This document shows, piece after piece, positions 48,118 through 63,799 of a DNA stretch of 64,000 nucleotides. The translations under genes and the position numbers were made by a program. The DNA is taken from assembly GCF_005473905.2 (NCBI RefSeq), contig NZ_CP061336.1:2720501-2784500 (forward strand), read 5' to 3'. The notes beneath the pieces are model-generated. The model was not told where the DNA came from. It did not search any database and saw only the letters and a list, made by a program, of their open reading frames with translations. Numbering within the stretch: the stretch's first letter is position 1; each line of letters opens with the position of its first letter. The DNA comes from Ruminiclostridium herbifermentans (GTDB lineage: Bacteria > Bacillota > Clostridia > Acetivibrionales > DSM-1351).

Positions 48118-48397
48118 TATAGACTGAATAGTAACGGATAAACAGCATTATTACCGTCTATCAGGTAGCGGAACGCCAGAACTAAATCTTCATTTCCTTG
48201 TTTGGGACAACTATCATAAATTTATATTTATTTGGGCTCAACAGTATTCTTACTTTCCATGTGTTTGTAAAACACTAGTTGATAGACTTTTCAAATCCTC
48301 TAATCTGGGTCATTAGCAATTCAACAAAACAAATAGGAGTATTTCCATTGTAATCAGCTGGTTTCAATTCCCTATTTCAGGTCATTAGTATTTTTAC
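48118..48397 (-). CRISPR. decayed CRISPR array A
   Basis: Repeat of 37 bp, canonical on the minus strand (begins GTTGAAATGC, ends GGGAATTGAAAC). Repeat-like units at 48118-48154, a collapsed unit 48188-48253, 48289-48325 and 48361-48397; spacers of 33-35 bp at 48155, 48254 and 48326. All repeats are degenerate. Spacers 48254-48288 and 48326-48360 recur in array B. Confidence 0.75.
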
Positions 48398-48460
48398 TTG
48401 TTTTTTTGAGCTATTCTCAGTATTTTCAAGGCTTTCAGCCATTTTGAGATTGGGTTAAGA
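48398..48460 (-). promoter_or_regulatory. CRISPR leader A
   Basis: The segment containing GAGCTATTCTCAGTATTTTC and AGCCATTTTGAGATTGGGTT recurs next to the repeat-proximal end of all three arrays, on the side expected for a leader of minus-strand arrays. Confidence 0.65.
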
Positions 48461-48562
48461 TTGTAATTTTTAGTGAATAAGCTAAAAACGTAATGCATCT
48501 AGATCTCCTGCTTTATACTAAATACCAACATTTCGCTCATATATCTATCACTTAAAACAACA

Positions 48563-49144
48563 CTATCTTGTTACAGCCATACCTTCAATGCTTTCCATGG
48601 GGATTATAAATTTGGTGTTAAAGAGTTCCTTTGAATATGTATGGGTTTCTTTTAATAAATACTTTTCTAGCTTCTCCACTTCAAATAATTTTTCTTCTGT
48701 TTTGGCCAATCGCATAAAATACGAAAAATTCTCTTCTCTACTTTCAGACTTCTGTATTTTTGGATATTTATCGGAATTATAAACAAGTATGTAGCTTATA
48801 TTCTTCCTTGCAAAATCAAAGTCAGGAATAATCCCCAGTTCTAACAGCATAATAATACTATCATATATTTTTCTGAATAAATCAGCCCTATCTATTGAAC
48901 CGTTTTTGAATTCAATAAAGTACCAGCTACCATCTTTACTGATATACAAGGCATCATTAGAAGCCGGAAGACAGGGCAAATGTTTTTCTTTGCTATATTC
49001 TTTTGGTATTTTATCAAAATTAATAACTTTTAACTTGCTTTCACACATATAACTTACACTACATTTATCAAAGGAAGCTTTCTTTAGTGTACATTCATGT
49101 TTTATTAATGCTTCACGTAAATTTTGAATAATTTCTTCTGTCAT
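48563..49144 (-). CDS. PD-(D/E)XK-like nuclease-fold protein, partner of ATPase
   Basis: A 193-residue protein I do not assign to a named family. A restriction-endonuclease-like core is visible: SNDALYISKDGSWYFIEFKNG gives Asp64, Glu78 and Lys80 in the D...ExK arrangement on adjacent strands, preceded by an N-terminal helix (TEEIIQNLREALIKHE) and followed by helical RADLFRKIYDSIIML. A start at the ATG after AAAGGAAAG is preferred over one 18 bases upstream that overlaps the ATPase stop. Either way the pair is coupled. Inference: an effector nuclease controlled by the ATPase, as in two-gene defence systems. Nuclease activity is unproven. Confidence 0.6.
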   Translation of the reverse strand: MTEEIIQNLREALIKHECTLKKASFDKCSVSYMCESKLKVINFDKIPKEYSKEKHLPCLPASNDALYISKDGSWYFIEFKNGSIDRADLFRKIYDSIIMLLELGIIPDFDFARKNISYILVYNSDKYPKIQKSESREENFSYFMRLAKTEEKLFEVEKLEKYLLKETHTYSKELFNTKFIIPMESIEGMAVTR

Positions 49145-49154
49145 AGACTTTCCT

Positions 49155-50468
49155 TTACTCATTATTTAGCTGGTGGCGCAATGTATCCAGTAACTGGACA
49201 GGAGACACCATTTTCTTATAAATCAAGTCAATATTATCTGTCACTATTTCCATATTTACCTTGTTATTTTCCATGGAAGACAAATAGTAATTAACCTTTT
49301 TATCAATACCATGCTTTACAGAAAATAAATTTATTGCATCCAAAAAATATGGACTATGGGTTGCAATTATTATTGATAAATCAAAGCTTTTTTGCAGCAA
49401 TACAATTAACTCTGCGTATGCTACCTGCCACTGAGGATGTAAGTGTATTTCTGGCTCATCTAAAACTAAAACATCCTTTTCCTTTAATACACCCTTCTCA
49501 AGCAGCATTTTTATAATGACAAATGATTTTAGTCCTGCTGAAAGGTTGTTAAAATTAACAGGCTCGCTAAAGCCATCATTTTGTAAAGCAAATCCATGCT
49601 GATTTTTAATTATTTGTCCATCAACAACTGTTTGCAGAGTCTGATAAACTTCTTTTAGCTTTTCTTTAGCAAGAACAGATTCAAAAATCCCATCCATTAT
49701 GTCTGCTTTATTATTTTTAATTAATAAATTTTTCAAATAATCATCAATAGTATTTAACTCACCAGTACTAGATAGCGTATCTATAATAAAAGGGTTATCA
49801 ATATAAACTGCTTTGTTTAAAATAGGAATATCTGCTGAAAACTCTGTACATTCATTATTTGAAAACACTAGATTAATGCACTTCTTCTTTATCTCCAATT
49901 CCAATATAGCATTTTTATTTTCATTATTAAGAGAGTTAATTTGTTTATAAAATACACTGTTAAAATATCGTGTTAGAACTTCTGATATAATAGCCTGATT
50001 AGGCAAATTAAAAATAGATATTATTTTGTCAGCTGTTTCATCAATCATTTGATTAAATTCATCAATTTCACTATACTTTATGTTCGAATATTTTAGTACT
50101 TTTTTTATAGTAAATGTAATGTCATTTTTATTATAAGAATTATCACCCAGAAAAGTTTTTAAATCAAGCTCATTTGTTATAGTAAAAGCAATATGTTTTG
50201 CTACCATTGATATTTCTTTTTCAACTGAATTATTTTCAATTTTTTCAATATAATTATTTTTCACTAAAATATAGCAAATATCCTCAATTTCTTTTAATCG
50301 TTGATTAACAATTTGGCCTTCAATACCAGCTATTGAATTAAACAACGAAAAAAGCACCTTTCCCACTGTACTTTTTCCAGTATTATTTTCTCCAGCAATA
50401 ACAGTAATCCCATCAACTAGAATATCCGCATGTTCTATCTTTGCAAAATTATCAATTATTAATTTCAT
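49155..50468 (-). CDS. AAA/ABC-type (OLD/SMC-like) ATPase
   Basis: 437 residues. Walker A GENNTGKST at 26-34 follows an FAKIEHADI strand pattern typical of OLD/RecF-like ATPases; the ABC signature is LSAGLKS, Walker B VLVLDEPEIHLHP and the switch histidine ATHSPYF. A helical insert lies between. There is no TOPRIM domain at the C-terminus, so it is not a single-chain OLD nuclease; the nuclease function seems to lie in the next gene. Starts after GAAAGGG. Flanked by CRISPR arrays A and B. Confidence 0.85.
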   Translation of the reverse strand: MKLIIDNFAKIEHADILVDGITVIAGENNTGKSTVGKVLFSLFNSIAGIEGQIVNQRLKEIEDICYILVKNNYIEKIENNSVEKEISMVAKHIAFTITNELDLKTFLGDNSYNKNDITFTIKKVLKYSNIKYSEIDEFNQMIDETADKIISIFNLPNQAIISEVLTRYFNSVFYKQINSLNNENKNAILELEIKKKCINLVFSNNECTEFSADIPILNKAVYIDNPFIIDTLSSTGELNTIDDYLKNLLIKNNKADIMDGIFESVLAKEKLKEVYQTLQTVVDGQIIKNQHGFALQNDGFSEPVNFNNLSAGLKSFVIIKMLLEKGVLKEKDVLVLDEPEIHLHPQWQVAYAELIVLLQKSFDLSIIIATHSPYFLDAINLFSVKHGIDKKVNYYLSSMENNKVNMEIVTDNIDLIYKKMVSPVQLLDTLRHQLNNE

Positions 50469-50572
50469 AGTAACCCTTTCAAAAACAATACATCATAAAT
50501 AGTAAACTTAATCTTTAGAATCAATTATACTTTATTCCCTAATGAAATACAATTCTTTACAAGGACATATAC

Positions 50573-51049
50573 ACTCGTCAGTATTAATACGTATCACTTG
50601 CATTCTTACCGTCTATCAGGTAGCGGAACGCCAAAACTAAATCTTCATTTCATTGTTTGGGGCAACTATCATAAATTTATATTTATTTGGGCTCAACAGT
50701 ATTCTTACTTTCCATGTGTTTCTAAAACGCTAGTTGATAGACTTTTCAAATCCCGAATTCGAGATCTATCAGATAGCGGAACACTAGATGATGATTTTGT
50801 AATTTCTTTATTTCAGACCAACAGCATTCTTACTTTCCATGTGTTTGTAAAACGCTAGTTGATAGACTTTTCAAATCCTCTAATCTGGGTCATTAGCAAT
50901 TCAACAAAACAAATAGGAGTATTTCCATTGTAATCAGCTGGTTTCAATCCCCTATTTCAGGTCACTTGCATTTCAACTTAAATGAAAAATCCAATCTTTT
51001 AACAGGTAAATAAGTGCAATTCCCTATTTCAGGTCATTAGTATTTTTAC
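50573..51049 (-). CRISPR. decayed CRISPR array B
   Basis: Same 37-bp repeat. Units at 50573-50609, 50643-50708 (collapsed), a truncated one at 50744-50761, 50797-50833, 50869-50905, 50941-50977 (the best match, but with CC for TC) and 51013-51049. Spacers of 33-35 bp at 50610, 50709, 50762, 50834, 50906 and 50978. The spacers at 50834 and 50906 match array A almost or fully (0-1 mismatch), and the 50709 and 50834 spacers are copies of each other. Confidence 0.8.
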
Positions 51050-51112
51050 TTGTTTTTTTGAGCTATTCTCAGTATTTTCAAGGCTTTTAGCCATTTTGAG
51101 ATTGGGTTTAAT
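51050..51112 (-). promoter_or_regulatory. CRISPR leader B
   Basis: Nearly identical to leader A (one base differs in the AAGGCTTT(T/C)AGCC segment). It lies between array B and the 3' end of the cas operon. Confidence 0.65.
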
Positions 51113-51151: not shown

Positions 51152-53335
51152 TTATTTATTTTTATCTTGCTGTAATTGAGGTAACCTTGGATCCTCTAAA
51201 ATCCCTTTTAATGTAAATCTAATATTCTGCTTCACTTCTGTAGCCCCATCACCAGCTATACGATTTAACTTAAACCAAACATGACTTCCTTCGTCATTAT
51301 TACTTTTTTTATCCTTTTTGCTTTTATTATTATCTATTATTTTCCCAAAAGTATATTGTACATTTTTTCCTTCCATGCTTGCATAATTTGTTATGTAAAG
51401 AAATTCTCTATATGCCTTATCATTAAACGAAGAATTCTCTGATAATATTTCTAAAAAATTCATAGGCTTATATGTTCTTATAATAGAGCCATCTTCTGCA
51501 ATATTCCATGTTCTATTTTTAACTTCATTTACTACTATTTTTACACTTCCAAAGCCTAATGGCTTAGCTCCTCCTATTTTGTGGCACCTATTTCCATTAA
51601 TATTATTTTCACCAATTGTCAAAACCCAAATAAGACTTTCTAGTTCTTTATTAGTTATTCTTTCAAAGTATATATCAAATTTAAACTCAACTTCTGCTTT
51701 AACAGGTCTAACAGTAGTATTAAGAGCTGTAATTCCCAAATCACTTTCTGTATTATTACGTTCACTAAGTTTTTGGGCTTTAATTGAATGTGAATGCCAG
51801 TAAAACTTTCTTCCAAGAATCTTTAACTCTTTATTTATATCAGTATTTTTGTTTATTCTACTATAGTCGTAATTCCAAAAATGTGCATTTACCTTTTTAC
51901 CATTAAGTTCAATCTTTGGACGTTCTGTGTAAAACTCCATTGCTGATGGTTTTGGTGAACTTAGTTCTTCTAATGTCATAATTTCATCAAAACAATTGCT
52001 TTCATTAAAACCCTTTTTAAGCTTAGCATCTGAAAACCTAATTTTCGAACCTAATGCAGAATTATCTCCAACCATACCAAAGAGTTCACATGCTGGGCAT
52101 AAATTACTCGCTTCAGAACAAGAATTAAATTCACCGTTATTTTTATTTTTTAAAATTCCCATAATTGTATTATTTAATCCAATTCTTGAAATACATGCTG
52201 GAGCTAAATATATTGTACTACCTACTTTTTCATACCAAACAGGATATTCCATTCCTTCTTTAATGCTGTTTAAACTATAGTGTTTATATCCATTATGTTC
52301 ATCATTCTTTTCCCCTAAGTTTCTATTTACTGCAGGGTCTTTATATACTTCCAAAACTAATTCCAATTTTTCTATTGCTTCATTAATATCTCCCTGTACT
52401 TCAATCCTTTTTCTATTAGCATTATTTAAATTATATGCAAATATACTGTCATGATGCTTTCTACTTCCAAAAGGTTCTCCTAAAAGTAGTATACCTTCTT
52501 CTTCCGTACCATTTCCAATATCTTGAGCCAGATATGGATAATAATTATTGTCCTTATATCGCTTTCCAACATTAAATTTAATTTTATCACCAGTGTAATA
52601 TTTATCCTCACCTACTTTTATATATTTACCTGACTCTATACTATGTATAGGTTCTGGATCATTTTTGCACTCTTTAGTCTTTATCATATATTTATTTGCT
52701 TCATATAATTTCCAACCTGTTTTTTCTTTAACAAGTATTCCAGCTTTTTTAGCCTTACTTTCTCGTGCTGTTAATGGGTTATCCGACGTCATCATACAAG
52801 AATCTGTTAATGCTTCAAAAGCAGACCTAATAACTCCACGTATACTACTACCTGGAATTATAGGTTCTTTGAGATTATTCAATGAAATTTTTTCAGACAT
52901 AACTCCACGTATACTACTACCTGGAATTAAAGGTTCCTTTGGTTCATTCAATGAAACTTTTCCAGACAAATCATTATATGAGAAAAAGTCATAGTTCTTA
53001 TGTTTTTCATTTGTTTCTTTATTTCCATCAGCTTTATTATCTTGTTCATCCTTTTTTTCATTTATCAAATCAGCTAATCCTAACGCATTGTCATTAGTTA
53101 TATTTGGTATAAAAATTGGTGTCTTTGTTCTCAATGTACAACTAATTGAGCCCGTTAGCAGTTCATCAGAGAAATCCTCTTTACCTTTTTCTCTTCGTTT
53201 AACTTCTTTTCCAAGACTTATGAAATTATATGGATTAACAAATTTGTCTCCAAATTCTTCAATATTGTTTGGATATTTACTCTTTTTCTGTATATTATTT
53301 TTCCATTTCATCATTTCACTAGCCATATCACCCAT
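51152..53335 (-). CDS. TIGR03986-type CRISPR RAMP protein (Cas7-like with large insertion)
   Basis: 727 residues, a RAMP-fold subunit of a type III-D-like complex. Seen: glycine-rich loop PGSSIRG, present twice (about 138-144 and 161-167) because a 23-residue segment is tandemly duplicated; the CPACELFG cysteine motif near residue 428 followed by SKIRFSDAKL; and GGAKPLGFGSVKI near 590, the second G-rich loop. The large region between the loops corresponds to an insertion within a Cas7 fold. Start: ATG overlapping the preceding stop (ATGGGTGA), after GGTGGAG. Last gene of the operon. Confidence 0.8.
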   Translation of the reverse strand: MGDMASEMMKWKNNIQKKSKYPNNIEEFGDKFVNPYNFISLGKEVKRREKGKEDFSDELLTGSISCTLRTKTPIFIPNITNDNALGLADLINEKKDEQDNKADGNKETNEKHKNYDFFSYNDLSGKVSLNEPKEPLIPGSSIRGVMSEKISLNNLKEPIIPGSSIRGVIRSAFEALTDSCMMTSDNPLTARESKAKKAGILVKEKTGWKLYEANKYMIKTKECKNDPEPIHSIESGKYIKVGEDKYYTGDKIKFNVGKRYKDNNYYPYLAQDIGNGTEEEGILLLGEPFGSRKHHDSIFAYNLNNANRKRIEVQGDINEAIEKLELVLEVYKDPAVNRNLGEKNDEHNGYKHYSLNSIKEGMEYPVWYEKVGSTIYLAPACISRIGLNNTIMGILKNKNNGEFNSCSEASNLCPACELFGMVGDNSALGSKIRFSDAKLKKGFNESNCFDEIMTLEELSSPKPSAMEFYTERPKIELNGKKVNAHFWNYDYSRINKNTDINKELKILGRKFYWHSHSIKAQKLSERNNTESDLGITALNTTVRPVKAEVEFKFDIYFERITNKELESLIWVLTIGENNINGNRCHKIGGAKPLGFGSVKIVVNEVKNRTWNIAEDGSIIRTYKPMNFLEILSENSSFNDKAYREFLYITNYASMEGKNVQYTFGKIIDNNKSKKDKKSNNDEGSHVWFKLNRIAGDGATEVKQNIRFTLKGILEDPRLPQLQQDKNK

Positions 53336-53954
53336 CACACTCCACCTCATTTCCTCCAGCTTTAAATCCTGCTAATCTCCAATCTGCTACTTCTGGAGAG
53401 CCATCTTCATTAAATTTTATGTAAGTCTTAATTAATAGCTTTAAATCCTGATCTTTGTAAGCTTCAGCATTAAAAGGCAGCTCGGGCAAATTTCTAATTT
53501 TACTTTTAAATTTACCGTCTTTTTGCCACTCACCATCAAGATAGTGCTCTTCTTTATATATATAAAGCTTTTTTGACTCATTGTAATCATCAAGATAGCG
53601 ATATAAGAACTTATCTTGTTCAAATGAATATATAACCCTAACCTCAAAGCATCTATTAAAAACTCGAAGTTCTAACAAGTTATTTGTATCATTTTGAGTA
53701 AATTCATTATCATTTTTAAACTTATCACAAAACTTCATGTTTACAAATTTTCCAAAACAAACATGATCTTTGAAAACTGCATATACAAAGCAATTTTCAT
53801 CTTTTTCACTCACTATAAATTTTTGTTTATTATCAGAATCATCTTCTGTCCTGTTTTCATAAATACTCTTTAGTCTACCAATCAAATCCTGAGGAATTAC
53901 ATTTTTTATTTCCACTTCTATATCTGACCAGTTCATTTCTTTAGTATCACCCAT
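53328..53954 (-). CDS. csx19: Csx19-like type III-D CRISPR protein (TIGR03984-like)
   Basis: 208 residues, no RAMP G-rich loop. The C-terminal GSPEVADWRLAGFKAGG and the position within a type III-D operon suit Csx19. Seen also: LELRVFNRCFEVRVIYSFEQ strands. In solved III-D variants Csx19 sits at the base of the complex; that role is transferred by family only. Overlaps both neighbours by 8 bp through ATGGGTGA-type junctions. Identification rests on context more than on motif. Confidence 0.6.
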   Translation of the reverse strand: MGDTKEMNWSDIEVEIKNVIPQDLIGRLKSIYENRTEDDSDNKQKFIVSEKDENCFVYAVFKDHVCFGKFVNMKFCDKFKNDNEFTQNDTNNLLELRVFNRCFEVRVIYSFEQDKFLYRYLDDYNESKKLYIYKEEHYLDGEWQKDGKFKSKIRNLPELPFNAEAYKDQDLKLLIKTYIKFNEDGSPEVADWRLAGFKAGGNEVECDG

Positions 53955-55674
53955 TTTTTCTCAACTCCTCCGCAAGTGATTTTAAGCATTCTTTACTTAC
54001 TATATCTTTTTCATTATTTTGGGGTATATCTTTTCCTATATCGTTCGCTATTTCCTTTACTATATCTTTATGAATCTTAATATCAGTAACCTTCATAAGT
54101 CCTCTACCTACAGCAGTTTCACCACCTACAGCTAACAGCCCATCATTAAGTTCATCAAGGAAAAGGAAAACTAAACCCAATACAGCTTTTTTCTCATCAC
54201 ATTTTCTGTTTATTCCTATTTTTAGTTTTGTTTCTCCACCACAGCATACATTTTCAGTAAATAGAGCTCCATGCATTGAGCCACCAGTAAATCTATCTAT
54301 TTTAGTTCTTGTTATAGGCATAATTGTGAAATTCTCAATTTCACTTTCAAAAAAGCTGAGGTTTGATTTGCAGAACTGTTTTTTGTTTTTCTTGCTTCCA
54401 TCTACTTCCGTTTTGTTGTCACTTATATTATTTGTGCTACTATTTTGAACGTTATTGTTTTTAGTATTTTCAGCATTTTGTTCGTTTTCATTCTGACCAA
54501 AGGCAATGCTAAGTATGCGATTAACTTTCTCATTTATTTTGCGTCTAACATTATCTTTATCATCATTTACATCAACGCCTATTGCATTTAAGTCCATAGA
54601 ATTTAATATTTCTTCCAAAATAATTTTTGACCTGTGTCTGAATGCTCCTGCCCAAGTTGTACCAGGAATTACAGGTGTTTCATCGTCCAAACAAAGTTGT
54701 CCATAATCAAATTTTTCTATATTAGGATAACTTTTGACTTTGTTCTTTTCAGAGTTATTTTTACAATCTATTCTCTGTTCAGAATTACTATCATTTTCTC
54801 CACTTTGTTGAGAATTATTTTGAACTATAATATTTGGATCAACATTATAATCACGTATCATTATTGTATCTGGTATTTTAATTTTTGCTTCAATTCCGTA
54901 AATATCATTACTACCAAGGTCCTCTCTTGATGTATAATTTCCATCTTTCCACTCAGAAGAACAATATGGATCAAATTCCAACCAATCTTCAGCTTTGCAT
55001 TCTCCCTTTATAAAGCTTTTTGTATAATACTCTGCTTCCATATAACCCAATCCACGGCTTGTTTTTGAGCCTATACGAAGGTCGCCTGAATTGATTGCAA
55101 TTGCTATTTTGTTAATTATCGCTTTAAATACTTTGGCTTTTTCACCACAATATTCAATTATTGCTTCAAATTTCGCACCCTTTTCAATAATTTCATAATT
55201 GTACTTTCCAGTGTCAATGGCTGTTTTCCTATCATCCAACTTTACACCATCTCTAAATGAAATAACAAATCTGGATTTTGATTTTTTGTTTGGATTGTCT
55301 GTGTTATTCGTGGAAGAATTATTCTCTGCATTATTTTCAGAAGAATTTCTACCTTCTACCTCTGCAAGTACTGCATCACCAAAAATTATTTCGCTTTGCC
55401 TTGCCTTGTGTTCCTCTTTTGAGTTTCCTCTATGAATATATCCAAAGAATTCTTTATCAATATCATCAATACTCATATCAGATGAATCTAAACCATTTGT
55501 TTTTATGTAGTGCCTGAATACTCCTGCCAGTGTTGAGCCTGGAATAAATGGTTCATCTCCTTGCTTGATAATATCCTTATCGCTGAACTCATCCATACCT
55601 GAGCATACTGAAAAAGGAGATTTTGTTGTAAGAATTAGTTTTATATATACTCTTTCTTTCGTACTATTTGTCAT
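53947..55674 (-). CDS. double RAMP protein (Cas7-2x-like, type III-D)
   Basis: 575 residues with two Cas7/Csm3-type RAMP units fused. Unit 1: loop IPGSTLAGVFRH (about 43-54) and RIGSKTSRGLGYM (200-212). Unit 2: IPGTTWAGAFRHRSK (335-349) and GGETAVGRGLMKV near 530. Acidic residues follow each first loop (SSDMSIDDID; VDVNDDKD), where Cas7 subunits carry the RNA-cutting aspartate; which ones act cannot be told. The units are joined and expanded by Asn/Ser-rich inserts (about 110-133, 285-315, 400-430). Start ATG after GGGAGG; overlaps csx10 by 11 bp. Confidence 0.8.
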   Translation of the reverse strand: MTNSTKERVYIKLILTTKSPFSVCSGMDEFSDKDIIKQGDEPFIPGSTLAGVFRHYIKTNGLDSSDMSIDDIDKEFFGYIHRGNSKEEHKARQSEIIFGDAVLAEVEGRNSSENNAENNSSTNNTDNPNKKSKSRFVISFRDGVKLDDRKTAIDTGKYNYEIIEKGAKFEAIIEYCGEKAKVFKAIINKIAIAINSGDLRIGSKTSRGLGYMEAEYYTKSFIKGECKAEDWLEFDPYCSSEWKDGNYTSREDLGSNDIYGIEAKIKIPDTIMIRDYNVDPNIIVQNNSQQSGENDSNSEQRIDCKNNSEKNKVKSYPNIEKFDYGQLCLDDETPVIPGTTWAGAFRHRSKIILEEILNSMDLNAIGVDVNDDKDNVRRKINEKVNRILSIAFGQNENEQNAENTKNNNVQNSSTNNISDNKTEVDGSKKNKKQFCKSNLSFFESEIENFTIMPITRTKIDRFTGGSMHGALFTENVCCGGETKLKIGINRKCDEKKAVLGLVFLFLDELNDGLLAVGGETAVGRGLMKVTDIKIHKDIVKEIANDIGKDIPQNNEKDIVSKECLKSLAEELRKNG

Positions 55675-58198
55675 TTTTATCGCCTCCCTTTTCATTGCCA
55701 ATTATTCTTATGTTAAGTCTGCATTGTGTCAGCAAGTTAATGTAATAGTACTTCAAATAATATTCCAAAAGTTCTTCTTTTGCATTGTTATTACTTATTT
55801 TTTTCACATCTTCAAATCTTTCAATGGATTCTTTTATTTCATTTAAATCTTTCCTTTTTTCTTCAGCAGCTTTGTTGATTGAATTAGTATTAACTTCTGG
55901 AGAATTATTTGATTCATTAGAAGAATTAATTTCTAAGGAACCTTCTTCTTTATCCTTAAATACTAGTTCTTCTACCATTTTCCTTTTATCCGTATCTTTA
56001 ATATAACTGATAAATTCCACAAAGTCCGAATACTTCCAACCATTTATGTATTTTACAAGAAGGTTATTTATAGTTGTTGAATTAATTGAAAGCTTTTGTT
56101 GATTATCTATTTTTTCCGAATTATTATTAAGCCTTTCTGCATTATAAAGTGCTTTTTTCTTAAGTTTTAATAAGTTTTCTTGCCTTTTGATATTATTTAT
56201 TAATATACTAAGCACATTTTCCAAATCTGGAGTTTTAGCTTTCTCTTTATTGCTTGTACTAATCCAGTCTTTTTCCTTTAGAGCTAGATTATCATTTAAA
56301 ACAGCATCTTTTACCCAGACATACATTTTGCCCAAGCCCTCATTCTGTCTTTCGCCTATGCTAATGTATTTATTAATTTCTTTTTCGTCACCTGTATATA
56401 TAAAAGTAAACACACTACCTGTAGCAATTGCTGGAACAGGAGGTCTTTCCAAATTCCATTTCCTATTGTAGCTGCCTATTTGGTCAACCTTAATGAATGA
56501 TATTTTTTCATTGTCACAATATTTCTTTGTATCATCCTTGCCAAAAAGCTTCTCTGCAATTTTCTTAACAATTTCCTCTGGCTTTATAATATTGCCTCCC
56601 AAATCATCAAGAAGCATAATATGTGATTGTGCAACTACTGCAAGTTCATTACCATTGTTTACTGAAATTTTTATTTCATCTGATGTTTCCTCTTTATACT
56701 TAACAACTGTTACAGAGCCATATTGAGCAGTTTTTGACTTTCCAATACGCATTTTGCAGTTATTTTTATTAAGCAAATCAACTATCGTCTTTATGCCTTC
56801 CTTGCTGCCTTTAATCTCACCAATAAAGTATTGGTCTGCACTTATTGCATTATATTGATAAAATGTATCTATAGCTTTGTCCTTTGACTTTTTACCATCT
56901 TTATCATCAACAGGTCTTGCGTGATGGTAGAATACTTCTTTTTTGACCTCCACAAAACGTTTTTTATCAATTTCATATTCATTTTTGCAGTTATTCTCTT
57001 TACTACTCTTACAGTCAGGCAATTTACCAAATGGATAAATATCTATATCACGGATAAACTTGTTTGTTAAAGATTTAGAAGGATTTTGTTTTTGTTCTTT
57101 TTCATAAAATACACTATTATAGCAAATTCCTTCACTGATTTTTTCTTTTTTACATGTAACAGGTGCTGGAAAATATCTGCTATAATTCTTATCCGAAATA
57201 TAGAAATTAGAAAAATACAATCCATCCTCCTGACCATTAACAAAGAACTTATAGAAATTTTCATCATCTTTGTTATACTTTAAATACTGACCTGCGAAAT
57301 AGCCTAATATAGTTGAGCCTGGAATATAGTCCATTGATTCAGAAGCCTTATTGCTGGAAATCATTATCGGTGAATCCAATCTGATCAGAAGCTTAATTTT
57401 ATTACAATTATCAGAAATATTAATTACATTTTTTTCAATTGCATTATTTTCCTCTAAACTGAGCTTTACTGCTCCAAAGCCCCTTGTCCTGTGTGAGCCA
57501 ATGTGCCTTAATGCTTTACAGCATTTAACTAATAGTTCTTTATCACTTGGGTCTGACAAGCTTGCCTCAGCAATGAATACCCTGTTTATATCGTTTATAT
57601 TGGTTTCGATATTATTTTCATTATTTTTTTCATGATTGTTTTTGTTAGCTACATCTTCATTTTTTAAATTATCAAATTTTTCTTTCTTAATGGGATCTAT
57701 ACAATTAATAACTCTAATGGTTCTGAGGCTTCCATCTTTAGCCGCTCCTGTTGATTCATTAATTGCTGTTCTGGTTCTGGTAGACGTAAAGTAGTTTATA
57801 ATGTCACTTCTTTTTATTTGTTTCTCGCCTTTGTTTTCATTTTTAGTATCTTTTATGCCTTGCTGATTGTGTACATTCTCAGACTGGCTATACATTTCAT
57901 CAAGCATAGTATAAATTTCTCTATAATTCTCTATGTAGGCATTAGATATGCTAAATGCTCCACCTTCATTTAATCCCTTTTCACCAAAAAGTCGTTTCTT
58001 ATCCTCCTCAGTGCAGCTTTCCCATTCTATTAATTCATTAGCAGCTTCTAGCAAACAGCCCTTTAGCCTTTTTGCAGGAATATATGGGAATCCGAATTTA
58101 TCAAAGCATACATCACTATCTATATAGCATCCGTGTCCACTGCCTGATGCCGCACACAAATCTGATTTAAGCTCTATTTTTATCCTGTAATGTTTCAT
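55664..58198 (-). CDS. csx10: Csx10-type RAMP fusion (type III-D)
   Basis: 844 residues. The N-terminus is typical of Csx10: a first strand, IDSDVCFDKFGFPYIPAKRLKGCLLEAA (residues 26-53, in part) and HIGSHRTRGFGAVKLS near 235. A second RAMP unit begins at IPGSTILGYFAGQYLK near 290, with GKSKTAQYGSVTV near 500 and ERQNEGLGKMYVW near 625. The last 200 residues are helical and charged (NIKRQENLLKLKKKALYNAE), a candidate Cas11-like small-subunit domain, as in the Cas7-Cas5-Cas11 fusion of type III-Dv. Its ATG abuts the cas10 stop. Confidence 0.82.
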   Translation of the reverse strand: MKHYRIKIELKSDLCAASGSGHGCYIDSDVCFDKFGFPYIPAKRLKGCLLEAANELIEWESCTEEDKKRLFGEKGLNEGGAFSISNAYIENYREIYTMLDEMYSQSENVHNQQGIKDTKNENKGEKQIKRSDIINYFTSTRTRTAINESTGAAKDGSLRTIRVINCIDPIKKEKFDNLKNEDVANKNNHEKNNENNIETNINDINRVFIAEASLSDPSDKELLVKCCKALRHIGSHRTRGFGAVKLSLEENNAIEKNVINISDNCNKIKLLIRLDSPIMISSNKASESMDYIPGSTILGYFAGQYLKYNKDDENFYKFFVNGQEDGLYFSNFYISDKNYSRYFPAPVTCKKEKISEGICYNSVFYEKEQKQNPSKSLTNKFIRDIDIYPFGKLPDCKSSKENNCKNEYEIDKKRFVEVKKEVFYHHARPVDDKDGKKSKDKAIDTFYQYNAISADQYFIGEIKGSKEGIKTIVDLLNKNNCKMRIGKSKTAQYGSVTVVKYKEETSDEIKISVNNGNELAVVAQSHIMLLDDLGGNIIKPEEIVKKIAEKLFGKDDTKKYCDNEKISFIKVDQIGSYNRKWNLERPPVPAIATGSVFTFIYTGDEKEINKYISIGERQNEGLGKMYVWVKDAVLNDNLALKEKDWISTSNKEKAKTPDLENVLSILINNIKRQENLLKLKKKALYNAERLNNNSEKIDNQQKLSINSTTINNLLVKYINGWKYSDFVEFISYIKDTDKRKMVEELVFKDKEEGSLEINSSNESNNSPEVNTNSINKAAEEKRKDLNEIKESIERFEDVKKISNNNAKEELLEYYLKYYYINLLTQCRLNIRIIGNEKGGDKNDK

Positions 58199-60076
58199 TT
58201 AATTTTTCATCTCCTTCTTCTTTTGCTCATCAAGCTGCGCATTAAGCTTATTATTTATAAATTCAAGCGCAAAATCTTCTAGGTTACAATAAATATCACT
58301 AATTTCTAATGAATCATAGTAAATGGCCTTAAAAGAATTACCATCATTATAAAAAGCTTTATTCTTAACTTTTTCATCTGATTCTTCAAATATATCTCTG
58401 TTCAGATATTTCTGATATTCAGGTAAAGAATACCCTCTAGACTCAAATTGCTTAATAGTATCTTGCAAATCATCATAACTTGAAAAATATTGATTTCTGA
58501 ACTCTGCAACTCTTGTACTAGGCCAAGCTTTAAGCTGTTTCTTTTTACTTGAGTCGTCTGATTTTTCGGCACTATCATTGATATCAGTCTCTTTAGATGT
58601 TTCACAATTTTTATTTGAAACCTTATTCTCTGAATTATTGCTTTCTTCCTTTGGAGTTTTACCAGTGGAAAAGTATTCTGCAAATTCTTCAAGCATCCTT
58701 ATGTCCTTTAAAGGATCAATTTCTTTACCTGTTACTTGCCAAGGACGTCTTAACAGGCTGTATCCGTCATCATTTACATACTGATTTTTCCTCATATTTT
58801 CCAAATCTTCTGTAACCCCTGAAAAGCAGAAATGATAATCAATAAAGCCACGTGTTATATCACTTGCTTTTGATTTTGCCTCAGCTTTAGCATTTGAACA
58901 GCATTCTTCGGCAATTTTATATGCTAAATTGAAAGGAAAATGACTGTGTATAAATGCAATTCCTGCACAAGCAGAAAATTGCAAATCATCATTTTCTGTT
59001 GACTTAGCGTTATTGTCTAAGTTGTCACTTTCAGAATTATTTTTTTGATTCTTTCCACATTGAACAATCTTCTCAAGATAAAGCCTTGTAAGTGGAATTG
59101 CAATTCTAGCATTGCAGATGAATGTAATATCATCACCAGCACAGATTATTGGTCTCATTGGCAATTTAGGTCTATCGCAGTTCTTATTTATATCAAGTTT
59201 TTTCCAATCATTATTAGTGCAAATTGCTTTTTCCAGTGCTTCAGGCATTACATTATATGCTTCTATAGTAAACGAGTTAGTTATTATCTGTGATAATTTT
59301 CTAATTTTAGGTACTGCCTTTTTATACTCAGTTTCATCAGCCATACTCTGGTTAATTGCATATGCCATGTTGTTACCATCAATATGTACAATAGCAAGCA
59401 AGCTTTCTGTTCCCTTGTCTGTAACCATTTCATCAAGGTTGAGCATATAGTTGAAATCATCATATTTATTAGAATCTTCTTTATATTTAATATAAGTCTT
59501 CAATTTTAGATTAGCTTCTGTAGAGTTTAAATCGTTATCATTTATATCTGATTTATATATATTCCTTGATACTATTGGTAATCCAGAAATAGAGTCTCTT
59601 TTTGTAACAGCTATTCCTCTAGGTAGTGTAAGAGGAGGATTTTTTTGCTTTGCTTCGTTAAGTTTACTCATTAATTTATCTATATCATCTTTATAATTTT
59701 CTTCACATTTAACAAATGCTGAAGAAACAGATAAACTATAGGTCTTTTCAAGAATTATTTCGTTCATCCTTCTGTACACTCGCTTATATTCATCTTCACT
59801 CTTAAATGCTGCATAAAGGTTTCCGCCACCTTCATAAATAATCTCGACTTGCAAATATTTTTTGCCTTCAAAATCAAATTCCTCACTTTTATTTTCCCAG
59901 TCGAAATCCATTTTTTCTGAATTGTTCTTACCAAACACATATTCACATGCTTCTTCAAAGCATTTTCTAAGAATATTTTTGATTATCTCCGAAGCACCTA
60001 TTATCTCTTTAATCTTATTAGTACGAAAAATGAATTCCTGTATTCCTCTTACATCAAAAACCGTCAACACTGACAT
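58199..60076 (-). CDS. cas10: Cas10-like large subunit without HD domain
   Basis: 625 residues, starting directly in the first palm domain (VFDVRGIQEFIFRTNKIKEIIGAS, residues 6-29 in part; GGGN at 83-86). The second palm shows HIDGNN (231-236) and AGDD (313-316) in place of the usual GGDD. No HD motif precedes the palm, so no DNase domain. A helical C-terminal D4-like domain follows, with an Asn/Ser/Lys-rich insert (about 475-515). If AGDD still binds metal, it makes cyclic oligoadenylate, which fits the divergent CARF gene. First gene of the five-gene operon; starts after AAGGAGG. Confidence 0.88.
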   Translation of the reverse strand: MSVLTVFDVRGIQEFIFRTNKIKEIIGASEIIKNILRKCFEEACEYVFGKNNSEKMDFDWENKSEEFDFEGKKYLQVEIIYEGGGNLYAAFKSEDEYKRVYRRMNEIILEKTYSLSVSSAFVKCEENYKDDIDKLMSKLNEAKQKNPPLTLPRGIAVTKRDSISGLPIVSRNIYKSDINDNDLNSTEANLKLKTYIKYKEDSNKYDDFNYMLNLDEMVTDKGTESLLAIVHIDGNNMAYAINQSMADETEYKKAVPKIRKLSQIITNSFTIEAYNVMPEALEKAICTNNDWKKLDINKNCDRPKLPMRPIICAGDDITFICNARIAIPLTRLYLEKIVQCGKNQKNNSESDNLDNNAKSTENDDLQFSACAGIAFIHSHFPFNLAYKIAEECCSNAKAEAKSKASDITRGFIDYHFCFSGVTEDLENMRKNQYVNDDGYSLLRRPWQVTGKEIDPLKDIRMLEEFAEYFSTGKTPKEESNNSENKVSNKNCETSKETDINDSAEKSDDSSKKKQLKAWPSTRVAEFRNQYFSSYDDLQDTIKQFESRGYSLPEYQKYLNRDIFEESDEKVKNKAFYNDGNSFKAIYYDSLEISDIYCNLEDFALEFINNKLNAQLDEQKKKEMKN

Positions 60077-60234: not shown

Positions 60235-61716
60235 ATGAATGAGAATATAATGATTTTATTTCTAAGTAATGTACGGCCTGTTAAGAATAATTTAAAAAAG
60301 TATCCATACAAGTATACCGAAACAAATGAAAATCATAATTATAATTTTGATATTAAAGGTGTACAAACTAACGAAGCTGCTGTTAAAACAGTAATTCAAT
60401 TATTACATGAATCTCAAAAAAAGCTTTCCACTGTTTATATGCTCTGCACAAAAACAGTGCTTGATGAGATAAAAGGATTAGAAGAAAAGCACAAAGAATT
60501 CTTTGAAAGAAGAATTAAAGAATTTTGTGAAGATAATAAATACAGTTGTCCTAAATTTGAAAAAATTGATTATGATGAGAGTAGTAAAGGAGAAAAAGTA
60601 TTTAATGAAATAATCAACATGGCAAATAAAATTGACGAAGATTATAACTCATCTGATATTACGGTATATGCTGATATGACTGGTGGAATGAGAAATTCTT
60701 CTATGCTTATGCTATCCATTATGAGATTACTACAATACAAGGGGATAAAAATAGAAAAAGTATTATATTCAAATTGGTCACCCGATACTGGTGAAACATA
60801 TATGGAAATTATAAGTAATGAAGATAAAAATTCTGTTTGCAAGCAAAATGATGATAAACAAAAATATAACACCATTGATAATATTACAGATATTTATAAA
60901 ATAAATAATTTAATTGCAGGTGCTGAAGAATTTGTTAAGTTTGGTAGTGCACAAACACTAACAGAATATTTTCAAATATTTATAAATAATAATCCCACCT
61001 CTCCATTATCGCTATTAATTGATGCAATGAATAACTTTTCTGAAAATCTAAAGTTATGTAGATATGGATATTTTAAAGAATCAATAGATAAATTAAAAGA
61101 TTGTATAAACAATTATAGAAGAAATGCTTTAAATGATATTAATGAGAAAATTTTTTATTTATTTTTATCAACAATAAAAAAAGAATATGATTTATTACTA
61201 AAACAAGATAGAACAGATTTAGATATTATCTCATGGTGCATTGAAAAGGGTTATTTACAACAAGCACTAACATTGTATGTTGAGAAGGTTCCTGATTTTA
61301 TTTATAGCAATCTTTTCCCATCTCTAGATGATAAAGAATTAAAAATTGTAGAAAAATCGTGTTGGTCAAATACTAGCCTAGGCTTCTATTTAATTAATAA
61401 ATACATTTTATCAAAAAACAATGCAAATTATAAACCCAAAAAGAATAAAGAAAAAGATTTTTTAGAACCAGATAAAAAAGCTGAATTAATTATAAATAGA
61501 TTAAATAATAAAATCGTCAAATTAAAATCAGATGTTATCAAATATGACTCCGATTATTTAAAAAATATACTTAAAAATTACTATACAATAAAAGATGACC
61601 GAAACAATTCTAACCATGCAAGTAATGAGAAAAACTTTAAAACTTCAGAGCATATTAAAAATGATTTAATTGAATATATCAATCTTCTTAATAAGAACAA
61701 CAAAAACTATAAATAA
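60235..61716 (+). CDS. CARF-HEPN ribonuclease (Csx1/Csm6-like, TM1812 family)
   Basis: 493 residues. The N-terminal CARF domain opens with ILFLSNVR and has the ligand-loop motif YADMTGGMRNSSMLMLSIMR (144-164, in part). The middle is helical. The C-terminal HEPN motif R-x4-H is intact (Arg456 to His461, in DDRNNSNHAS). The family senses cyclic oligoadenylate from Cas10 and then cuts RNA non-specifically. Starts after AAGGGAG. Transcribed away from the cas operon, followed at once by a small gene. Confidence 0.88.
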   Translation: MNENIMILFLSNVRPVKNNLKKYPYKYTETNENHNYNFDIKGVQTNEAAVKTVIQLLHESQKKLSTVYMLCTKTVLDEIKGLEEKHKEFFERRIKEFCEDNKYSCPKFEKIDYDESSKGEKVFNEIINMANKIDEDYNSSDITVYADMTGGMRNSSMLMLSIMRLLQYKGIKIEKVLYSNWSPDTGETYMEIISNEDKNSVCKQNDDKQKYNTIDNITDIYKINNLIAGAEEFVKFGSAQTLTEYFQIFINNNPTSPLSLLIDAMNNFSENLKLCRYGYFKESIDKLKDCINNYRRNALNDINEKIFYLFLSTIKKEYDLLLKQDRTDLDIISWCIEKGYLQQALTLYVEKVPDFIYSNLFPSLDDKELKIVEKSCWSNTSLGFYLINKYILSKNNANYKPKKNKEKDFLEPDKKAELIINRLNNKIVKLKSDVIKYDSDYLKNILKNYYTIKDDRNNSNHASNEKNFKTSEHIKNDLIEYINLLNKNNKNYK

Positions 61717-62171: not shown

Positions 62172-62426
62172 GCTCAAATCCCCTACATCTGCTCATTAGC
62201 ATTCTTACCGTCTATCAGGTAGCGGAATACTAGAACATAAATTTTTCATTTCCCCGATTCAGAACACTTGCATTCTTACTGCCCAATCAATTTACAAAAT
62301 TCTAGCTGATGGACTTTTCAAATTCCCTAATTCGGGTCACATGCATTTCAACTGTTGGGAATACCTAGAACACAAGCCAGACAAGTTGTGTTTCAATTCC
62401 CTACAACGGGTCACATGCATTTCAAC
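62172..62426 (-). CRISPR. CRISPR array C (4 repeats, 3 spacers)
   Basis: 37-bp repeats at 62172-62208, 62243-62279, 62316-62352 and 62390-62426, spacers of 34, 36 and 37 bp. The two right-hand repeats are nearly identical (ACAACG versus AATTCG in the middle); the two left ones are degenerate, as expected at the leader-distal end. On the minus strand the repeat ends GGGAATTGAAAC, giving an ATTGAAAC-type 5' handle. The left spacer (62209) is a diverged version of the oldest spacer of arrays A and B, and the 62280 spacer of their second. Confidence 0.88.
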
Positions 62427-62486
62427 TCGTTTTTGAGTTATTCTCAGTAACACCAAGGCTTTCAGCCATTTTGAGATTGGGTTAAA
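62427..62486 (-). promoter_or_regulatory. CRISPR leader C
   Basis: Shares GAGTTATTCTCAGTA, AAGGCTTTCAGCCATTTTGA and GATTGGGTT with leaders A and B. It is adjacent to the best-preserved repeat. Confidence 0.65.
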
Positions 62487-62754: not shown

Positions 62755-63174
62755 TTATTCTTCTTCATGATCACAGTCACAACCGCAACCGCAATCATCA
62801 TCACCACAGTCACAATCCCACTCTAACTCAATCTTTTCATGGCAATGGGGACATTCAATTGTTTCAGCATCTTCATCAATCATGTCAAGATCTACTTCTA
62901 TTATCTCACCGCAGTATGGGCATTCAACTTCTTCAAATTCTAGATCTTCGTCATCATATACCACTTTTTCAAGCTCAGCAAGATCCTCATCAATGCCGTC
63001 AACCTGTTCGCTCATTTCGTCCTGAATTTCCTCAATATCCTCAATTGCAAGAGAAATATCATCCAAAACATCAATGATTGCATTCAGCAATTTACCCTCA
63101 TTTGTTGAATCGTCAATTTTCATACCCTCTGCCAAACCTTTGATGAAAGCTACTCTTTCGCTAATATAGCTCAT
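62755..63174 (-). CDS. CD1247 N-terminal domain protein with zinc ribbon
   Basis: 139 residues. The N-terminal helical part (SERVAFIKGLAEGMKIDDSTNEGKLL, in part) is the CD1247 domain; then a zinc ribbon CPYCGE ... CPHCHE, and a striking C-terminal Cys/Asp-rich tail (WDCDCGDDDCGCGCDCD) that could bind more metal. A standard gene between efp and spoIIIAA in Clostridia; function unknown. Starts after AGGAGGTAA. Confidence 0.85.
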   Translation of the reverse strand: MSYISERVAFIKGLAEGMKIDDSTNEGKLLNAIIDVLDDISLAIEDIEEIQDEMSEQVDGIDEDLAELEKVVYDDEDLEFEEVECPYCGEIIEVDLDMIDEDAETIECPHCHEKIELEWDCDCGDDDCGCGCDCDHEEE

Positions 63175-63235: not shown

Positions 63236-63799
63236 TTATTTGTTTACTCTTTCCATGTACTCATTTGTTCTAGTATCAATTCTGATTATATCTCCAACAT
63301 TAATAAATAATGGAACCTTTACAACATAACCAGTTTCAACAGTAGCTGGTTTAGTTGCTCCTGTAGCAGTATCACCCTTAAAGCCAGGATCTGTTTCTGT
63401 AACTTCAAGTTCAACAAATGTAGGTGGCTCAATTCCAAAAACATTTCCCTTATGTGATAATATTCTAACTATTTCATTTTCCTTAACGAGAGCAAGTGAA
63501 TCACCTATTGTTTCCTTGCTTATTGGAATCTGCTCATATGATTCAACATCCATGAAATAGTAAAGATCTTCATCTTTATAAAGATACTGCATATCTTTTC
63601 TATCAATGTGTGCCTTTGGCATTTTATCAGTTGGGCTAAAAGTTCTTTCAACTGTAGCACCAGTAACAATATTTTTTAGCTTACATCTTACAAAAGCTGC
63701 TCCTTTTCCAGGCTTAACGTGTTGGAATTCCACCACTTGGAATATGTTATTATCATATTCAAACGTCACACCATTTTTAAAATCACCAGCTACTATCAT
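63236..63799 (-). CDS. efp: translation elongation factor P
   Basis: Relieves ribosome stalling at polyproline. 187 residues with the three-domain KOW/OB layout; the modified lysine position lies in [10 protein letters not shown] near residue 32, and the C-terminal signature is [15 protein letters not shown]. No efpM-type enzyme (epmA/epmB) is nearby. Starts after CGGAGG. Confidence 0.97.

Follow-up and report, generated by a model that had tools for sequence, protein, structure and literature searches.

What does a two-gene cassette, in which the gene for an ATPase is followed by the gene for a small predicted nuclease, do within a CRISPR (clustered regularly interspaced short palindromic repeats) island of Ruminiclostridium herbifermentans? 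The cassette lies in a stretch of 64,000 nucleotides (contig NZ_CP061336.1, positions 2,720,501 to 2,784,500), here termed the window, and coordinates below are those of the window unless another locus, designated L followed by a number, is named. The original prediction described the pair as a candidate two-gene defence system. For both genes, we computed predicted folds, conserved residues, coupling, co-inheritance and mobility. Judged by its kind, the ATPase-nuclease pair likely has a role in defence, and the evidence as a whole is probably best explained by a cassette in which the ATPase activates the nuclease to provide abortive anti-phage defence.

An ATPase gene coupled to a small predicted nuclease gene

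Both open reading frames were confirmed at the positions first assigned to them on the reverse strand, with an ABC ATPase gene of the OLD/Rad50/PtuA type at 49155..50468 (437 amino acids) and, downstream of it, a gene for a predicted small PD-(D/E)XK-type nuclease at 48563..49144 (193 amino acids). The nuclease ATG at 49144 lies 10 nucleotides past the ATPase stop codon and has AAGGAAA just upstream, while use of an alternative in-frame ATG at 49162 gives an 8-nucleotide overlap with the ATPase stop. The two genes are thus tightly coupled with either start codon, as the proposal of translational coupling had supposed.

The window ATPase scores above the Pfam cut-offs for AAA_15 and AAA_21, and no TOPRIM match was found in it with Pfam, in agreement with its description as an OLD-like ATPase without TOPRIM. 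Conserved ATPase residues include the Walker A lysine K32 (codon 50373-50375, reverse strand), the catalytic glutamate E338 (49455-49457, reverse strand) and the H-loop histidine H371 (49356-49358, reverse strand), and the predicted fold matches the heads of OLD and PtuA, among others. Four Ezakiella ATPases (L050, L058, L059 and L060) are only 295-316 amino acids long compared to the usual ~435 and retain their nuclease partner; the difference would fit the loss of a large part of the insert that follows Walker A.

For the small protein, the predicted topology is PD-(D/E)XK-like (predicted local distance difference test score, 90.5), and the catalytic residues occupy the positions they have in that fold; the structure check thus gave no non-nuclease fold. 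The residues numbered D64, E78 and K80 in the original prediction (codons 48953-48955, 48911-48913 and 48905-48907, all on the reverse strand) were numbered correctly, and the PD-(D/E)XK layout proposed for them is borne out both by this topology and by their invariance in all 60 aligned small proteins (alignment A2, from which the truncated or broken L062, L064, L066 and L070 were excluded; alignment A4 is A2 without L012 and with some starts trimmed). S24, D26, D44, F79, N81, K92 and V121 are likewise invariant in A2. The scan that built the collection used two patterns, [MF]IEFKN[GT]x[VI] and [VI][DN]FD..., and since these include the residues concerned, E78-N81 were partly selected for, and D44 to a lesser degree; D64 and K92 fall outside this selection. 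The D/E/K residues are also kept in the 8 of 60 rows lacking the first pattern, and D...E-F-K is kept in three relatives reached via the ATPase alone, namely L112 on an Acinetobacter plasmid, L095, and L111 on a Klebsiella plasmid, which score 48, 45 and 29 bits, respectively, against the nuclease profile.

General libraries recognized this protein poorly. The window nuclease had no convincing Pfam match and no NCBIfam match, profiles of the PDB searched with the aligned nucleases returned no matches at E <= 1, and a viral fold library gave none at E <= 0.001. The window nuclease has a match to phrog_25533 at 2.4e-4; searched against the class, this family matched 3 of 391 genomes, these being the window's own, L009 and L011 (stop inside match), and L009 has neither a nuclease nor an ATPase family member.

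Conservation and mobility of the pair

A search for the coupled pair across genomes found it to be conserved as a unit, with a same-strand ATPase frame directly upstream of the nuclease in 60 of 63 loci (L012-L074), mostly in Bacillota. These 60 include one locus cut by a contig end (L035) and three with a split or truncated ATPase (L051, L053 and L054), and the unpaired exceptions, L062, L066 and L070, carry truncated or broken nucleases. Nuclease and ATPase distances are correlated over 55 loci (r = 0.79, with 0 of 2000 permutations as high), 22 of these 55 loci have the same nearest neighbour in both families, and the main groups are common to both gene trees. The ATPase alignment (A3, 57 rows) excludes loci in which the ATPase is shortened, cut or split (L029, L035, L051 and L054) or absent or broken (L062, L066 and L070), and retains the 5'-truncated L053. 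A starred group of 15 rows, one of those common to both trees, unites the window with Bacillota, an Akkermansia and a Bifidobacterium, with some placements unsure owing to long branches; many loci derive from metagenome bins, in which an isolated unexpected organism may reflect a mis-binned contig.

Members of the family also occur on mobile elements. When viral contigs were searched with the nuclease alignment, one was found, L074, a temperate phage that encodes tail, endolysin, replication and anti-repressor proteins; a search of viral contigs with the single window protein gave no match. To one side of the pair in L074 (5485-10371) are genes for a regulator and a metalloprotease-like protein, and to the other is an integrase that also matches DNA invertases. 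A site between the phage regulatory module and the integrase is a common one for phage cargo. By our reading, L012, a human-gut scaffold labelled as bacteriophage, bears ParB-like and mobilisation-like proteins. Plasmids searched with the small protein yielded no match at E <= 0.01. Given that the pairing is conserved, that the trees agree and that one copy lies in a temperate phage, these results imply that the two genes form a genuine cassette that is mobile and inherited together. The Klebsiella pair L111 (1201-3166), a distant relative of the whole cassette, is located directly after the replication gene of a 5.9-kb plasmid, and no counterpart was found in E. coli genomes searched with it.

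Distribution within the class is patchy. Nuclease matches at E <= 0.001 occurred in 7 of 391 genomes, counting that of the window itself, and no match was present in any of 10 same-genus sibling genomes. Two of the seven, L006 and L007, were dropped as family members, since the proteins matched, 554 and 394 amino acids long, are unrelated. This pattern bears on whether the genes might instead be a housekeeping or DNA-repair pair akin to Rad50-Mre11 or RecF, as the similarity of the ATPase head to Rad50 and SMC heads could suggest. Such patchiness, together with neighbours that change from locus to locus and copies in mobile elements, argues against a housekeeping role, which we consider highly improbable.

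Two genes that are coupled and move together could also constitute a toxin-antitoxin system, in which the ATPase restrains a toxic nuclease and the function is maintenance rather than phage defence. The damaged loci bear on this in both directions. In its favour, the ATPase is intact and the nuclease deleted in L092, and L004, L066 and L070, where no intact ATPase is present, have broken nucleases; on the other hand, a damaged ATPase stands beside an intact nuclease frame in L051, L053 and L054, and in L062 a 5'-truncated nuclease with D/E/K intact has no ATPase at all. With the picture mixed across loci, the notion of a toxin-antitoxin asymmetry in which orphan nucleases are always broken was dropped, and we regard a toxin-antitoxin function as unlikely.

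About 22 residues of the nuclease start persist in L092 (1501-2842). In L066 (600-1760), frameshifts have damaged both genes, and K-x-K stands in place of the active-site E-x-K; as L066 is a metagenome bin, these changes may be sequencing errors.

Relation to known systems and a possible mode of action

The original prediction held that the pair fits no two-gene system, and this was not sustained, as WonAB, the "OLD-ABC ATPase + Novel REase" operon and HEC-02 share its composition. WonAB (PMC12137116) consists of an OLD-ABC ATPase, WonA, with a PD-(D/E)xK nuclease, WonB, under accessions AWB73975.1 and AWB73976.1; it is borne on the V. cholerae WASA-1 prophage, with anti-phage activity demonstrated in Vibrio cholerae and E. 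coli. Protection requires both genes and their catalytic residues, and infection is aborted via a stop in translation. By its published description, WonAB resembles the window pair in being a two-gene operon that joins a TOPRIM-less ABC ATPase of OLD type to a PD-(D/E)XK nuclease, in having a prophage-borne example, and in the spacing of 33 residues between the catalytic glutamate and the H-loop histidine (E300 and H333 in WonA, E338 and H371 in the window ATPase). The two differ in that WonAB homologues are, in the same source, mainly from Gram-negative bacteria, whereas the window family is mostly from Bacillota.

That paper also relates WonAB to the "OLD-ABC ATPase + Novel REase" operon, present in 0.96% of bacterial genomes, with an exemplar from Anaerovibrio lipolyticus, accessions SHI83489.1 and SHI83462.1, and the Krishnan 2020 survey as its origin (PMC12137116). 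This operon has the same composition as the window pair, and the window family includes a pair from Anaerovibrio sp. JC8 (L057), so that the two families are likely the same, the exemplar having been compared by description only; 8 other genomes of the L057 genus contained no match. OLD-ABC ATPases paired with PD-(D/E)XK enzymes are also reported from BREX loci in a 2026 survey (PMC12839542).

HEC-02, a PADLOC system cited to bioRxiv 10.1101/2024.01.29.577857, has the same layout, in which the ATPase is overlapped by a small VDF...E-x-K protein in all 4 examples examined. Two of these examples, L106 and L107, were reached via HEC-02B models (which matched 1 of 148, 1 of 119 and 1 of 119 genomes, the last two being the same genome), and two plasmid copies, L108 and L109, via the L107 protein. 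The ATPase profiles of the window family and HEC-02 match strongly (E 9.9e-21), and the nuclease profiles match weakly (hhalign E 0.0068, probability 5.6), with D, E and K in register. The most frequent HEC-02B model matches 7 of 60 relatives at E <= 0.01, and the best E value with any HEC-02B model is 1.6e-6; the window nuclease itself has no HEC-02B match at E <= 1, and the window genome none at E <= 1e-5 with three HEC-02B models. The A and B labels of HEC-02 in PADLOC are mixed, such that the window ATPase also matches a model named HEC-02B (5.2e-15). Between them, the layouts of WonAB, the Novel REase operon and HEC-02 agree with that of the window pair, indicating that it is a further member of the OLD-ABC plus PD-(D/E)XK kind. 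In L108 (1377-2992), the annotation places the plasmid pair within a BREX operon, with brxC and pglX as its neighbours, and the pair of L109 (1320-2992) lies between two large genes without names.

Several other systems were considered and rejected. PARIS shares with the window pair an OLD-type ATPase and a separate effector gene, and the window ATPase matches the AriA model (9.7e-19), but the AriB effector is a TOPRIM nuclease, whereas the small protein has no AriB match at E <= 1 and instead carries D...ExK on a PD-(D/E)XK-like topology. Septu differs in that PtuB is an HNH nuclease; the small proteins have no invariant histidine among 60 relatives, and there was no PtuB match at E <= 1. Gabija, in which GajA fuses an ATPase to TOPRIM and GajB is a helicase, was set aside, as the 437-residue ATPase has no TOPRIM match and the partner gene has no helicase match. 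Kinship with Hachiman, which couples a HamA nuclease to the helicase HamB, was also rejected: HamA, the only PADLOC model that the window nuclease matches at E <= 1, has an E value of 0.0085 and aligns to residues 111-188, outside the D/E/K motif, the first-ranked Foldseek match for the nuclease (E 0.039, root-mean-square deviation 15.4) is too weak as well, and the partner is an ABC ATPase rather than a helicase.

By analogy with WonAB, complex formation, ATPase-dependent activation and abortive infection are most likely for the window pair, too. The ATPase would dimerise via its ABC heads and hold the nuclease, and upon sensing a phage-dependent signal, its ATP cycle would activate the nuclease, which might then cut nucleic acid (candidates are DNA, tRNA and rRNA) and halt the infection by sacrificing the cell. 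The WonAB report (PMC12137116) also states that WonB overproduction is toxic only with active WonA and that simple sequestration was ruled out, further reducing the case for a toxin-antitoxin function. It is possible, albeit doubtful, that the Bacillota-centred nucleases are instead a distinct effector lineage with a trigger and target of their own, such as tRNA or rRNA cutting, rather than WonB in a new host.

We do not claim that the family is undescribed in the literature. The OLD-ABC plus PD-(D/E)XK kind nonetheless gains a defined, tree-supported, Bacillota-centred family, supplied with 60 aligned nucleases and two confident models, and as the nuclease lacks a convincing Pfam match and just some of its relatives are matched by PADLOC models, and those weakly, standard annotation will tend to miss the cassette. 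If the pair is WonAB-like, abortive infection by translation arrest would extend to these bacteria, and the residues given above would be the exact ones for mutation.

The CRISPR island and neighbouring genes

The claim that the pair sits inside a CRISPR island stands, as a type III-D effector operon (51152-60076, reverse strand; TIGR03986 Cas7-like, Csx19, Cas7-like, Csx10 fusion and Cas10d) lies upstream of the pair as context outside the cassette, and array-like tracts flank the pair on either side. The pair is located in the interval 48457-50588, bracketed by two reverse-strand tracts resembling decayed CRISPR leaders and arrays, one downstream (48134..48456) and one upstream (50589..51108). 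These are near-copies of each other in three blocks of 93-99% identity (48134-48298 with 50589-50753, 93%; 48227-48399 with 50807-50979, 93%; 48365-48456 with 51017-51108, 99%), and a third, more diverged tract lies at 62172..62483, also on the reverse strand. The tracts have in common a leader-like end, degenerate 37-nucleotide repeats and related spacers, and for this reason we interpret them as copies of one decaying array rather than separate live arrays. With three copies and common spacers that drift, the array seems to have been spread by duplication and decay and not by adaptation.

This setting raises the possibility that the pair is an accessory effector of the adjoining type III-D system, lying as it does between two decayed tracts and next to the cas operon. 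The window nuclease, however, has no CARF match (PADLOC, E <= 1), and only 2 of 60 relatives match a CARF-PDDEXK model, weakly (best 6.7e-4) and with a model whose name includes a PD-(D/E)XK part. Scanning 217 neighbours from the 60 loci (109 upstream and 108 downstream, with at most two per side and open reading frames below 100 amino acids excluded), we found no core cas family among the 25 most frequent PADLOC families per side (of 142 and 72), a weak negative, and the copy in L074 is inside a phage. Copies elsewhere having other neighbours, the accessory role was rejected as the principal interpretation and seems very remote; the link of the pair to CRISPR looks local and incidental.

G+C content is lower in the pair (28.5%) than in either the cas genes (30.9%) or the sporulation genes (34.8%), and none of the 10 siblings has a match to the cas gene at 51152-53350 (E <= 0.001). 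spoIIIAA is present in 11 of 11 genomes, and homologues of the efp-like gene at 63236-63799 and of its neighbour at 62755-63174 lie ~3-7 kb from it in 8 of 10 sibling regions; in the two regions where the efp-like pair was not visible, L096 begins at a contig end and L105 is a short stretch. The same interval is ~15 kb in the window, from which we infer that the island is an insertion or replacement in the window's lineage. Beside the III-D operon lies a forward-strand gene at 60235-61716, whose product contains DMTGGMR and an R-x4-H-like RNNSNH and may be a CARF-HEPN RNase of the Csm6 type; its sole Pfam match was at the level of chance.

Defence-type genes occur among the scanned neighbours, although we claim no enrichment from this; they include three upstream type I specificity subunits, a fused AriAB and AbiLi (L022). 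RdrB of RADAR is matched (1.4e-26) by a large protein encoded immediately upstream of the pair from Fibrobacter (L065:3949-6558). A GajB-like match at L029 may be a general UvrD-type helicase, and the mad3 matches (4 upstream and 4 downstream) may reflect ATPases in general. Six of ten neighbours scanned singly had no PADLOC match at 1e-15. A 1292-residue neighbour in L064 matches a DEDDh model labelled Cas-associated (1.8e-40) and, from its size, may be a DNA polymerase subunit.
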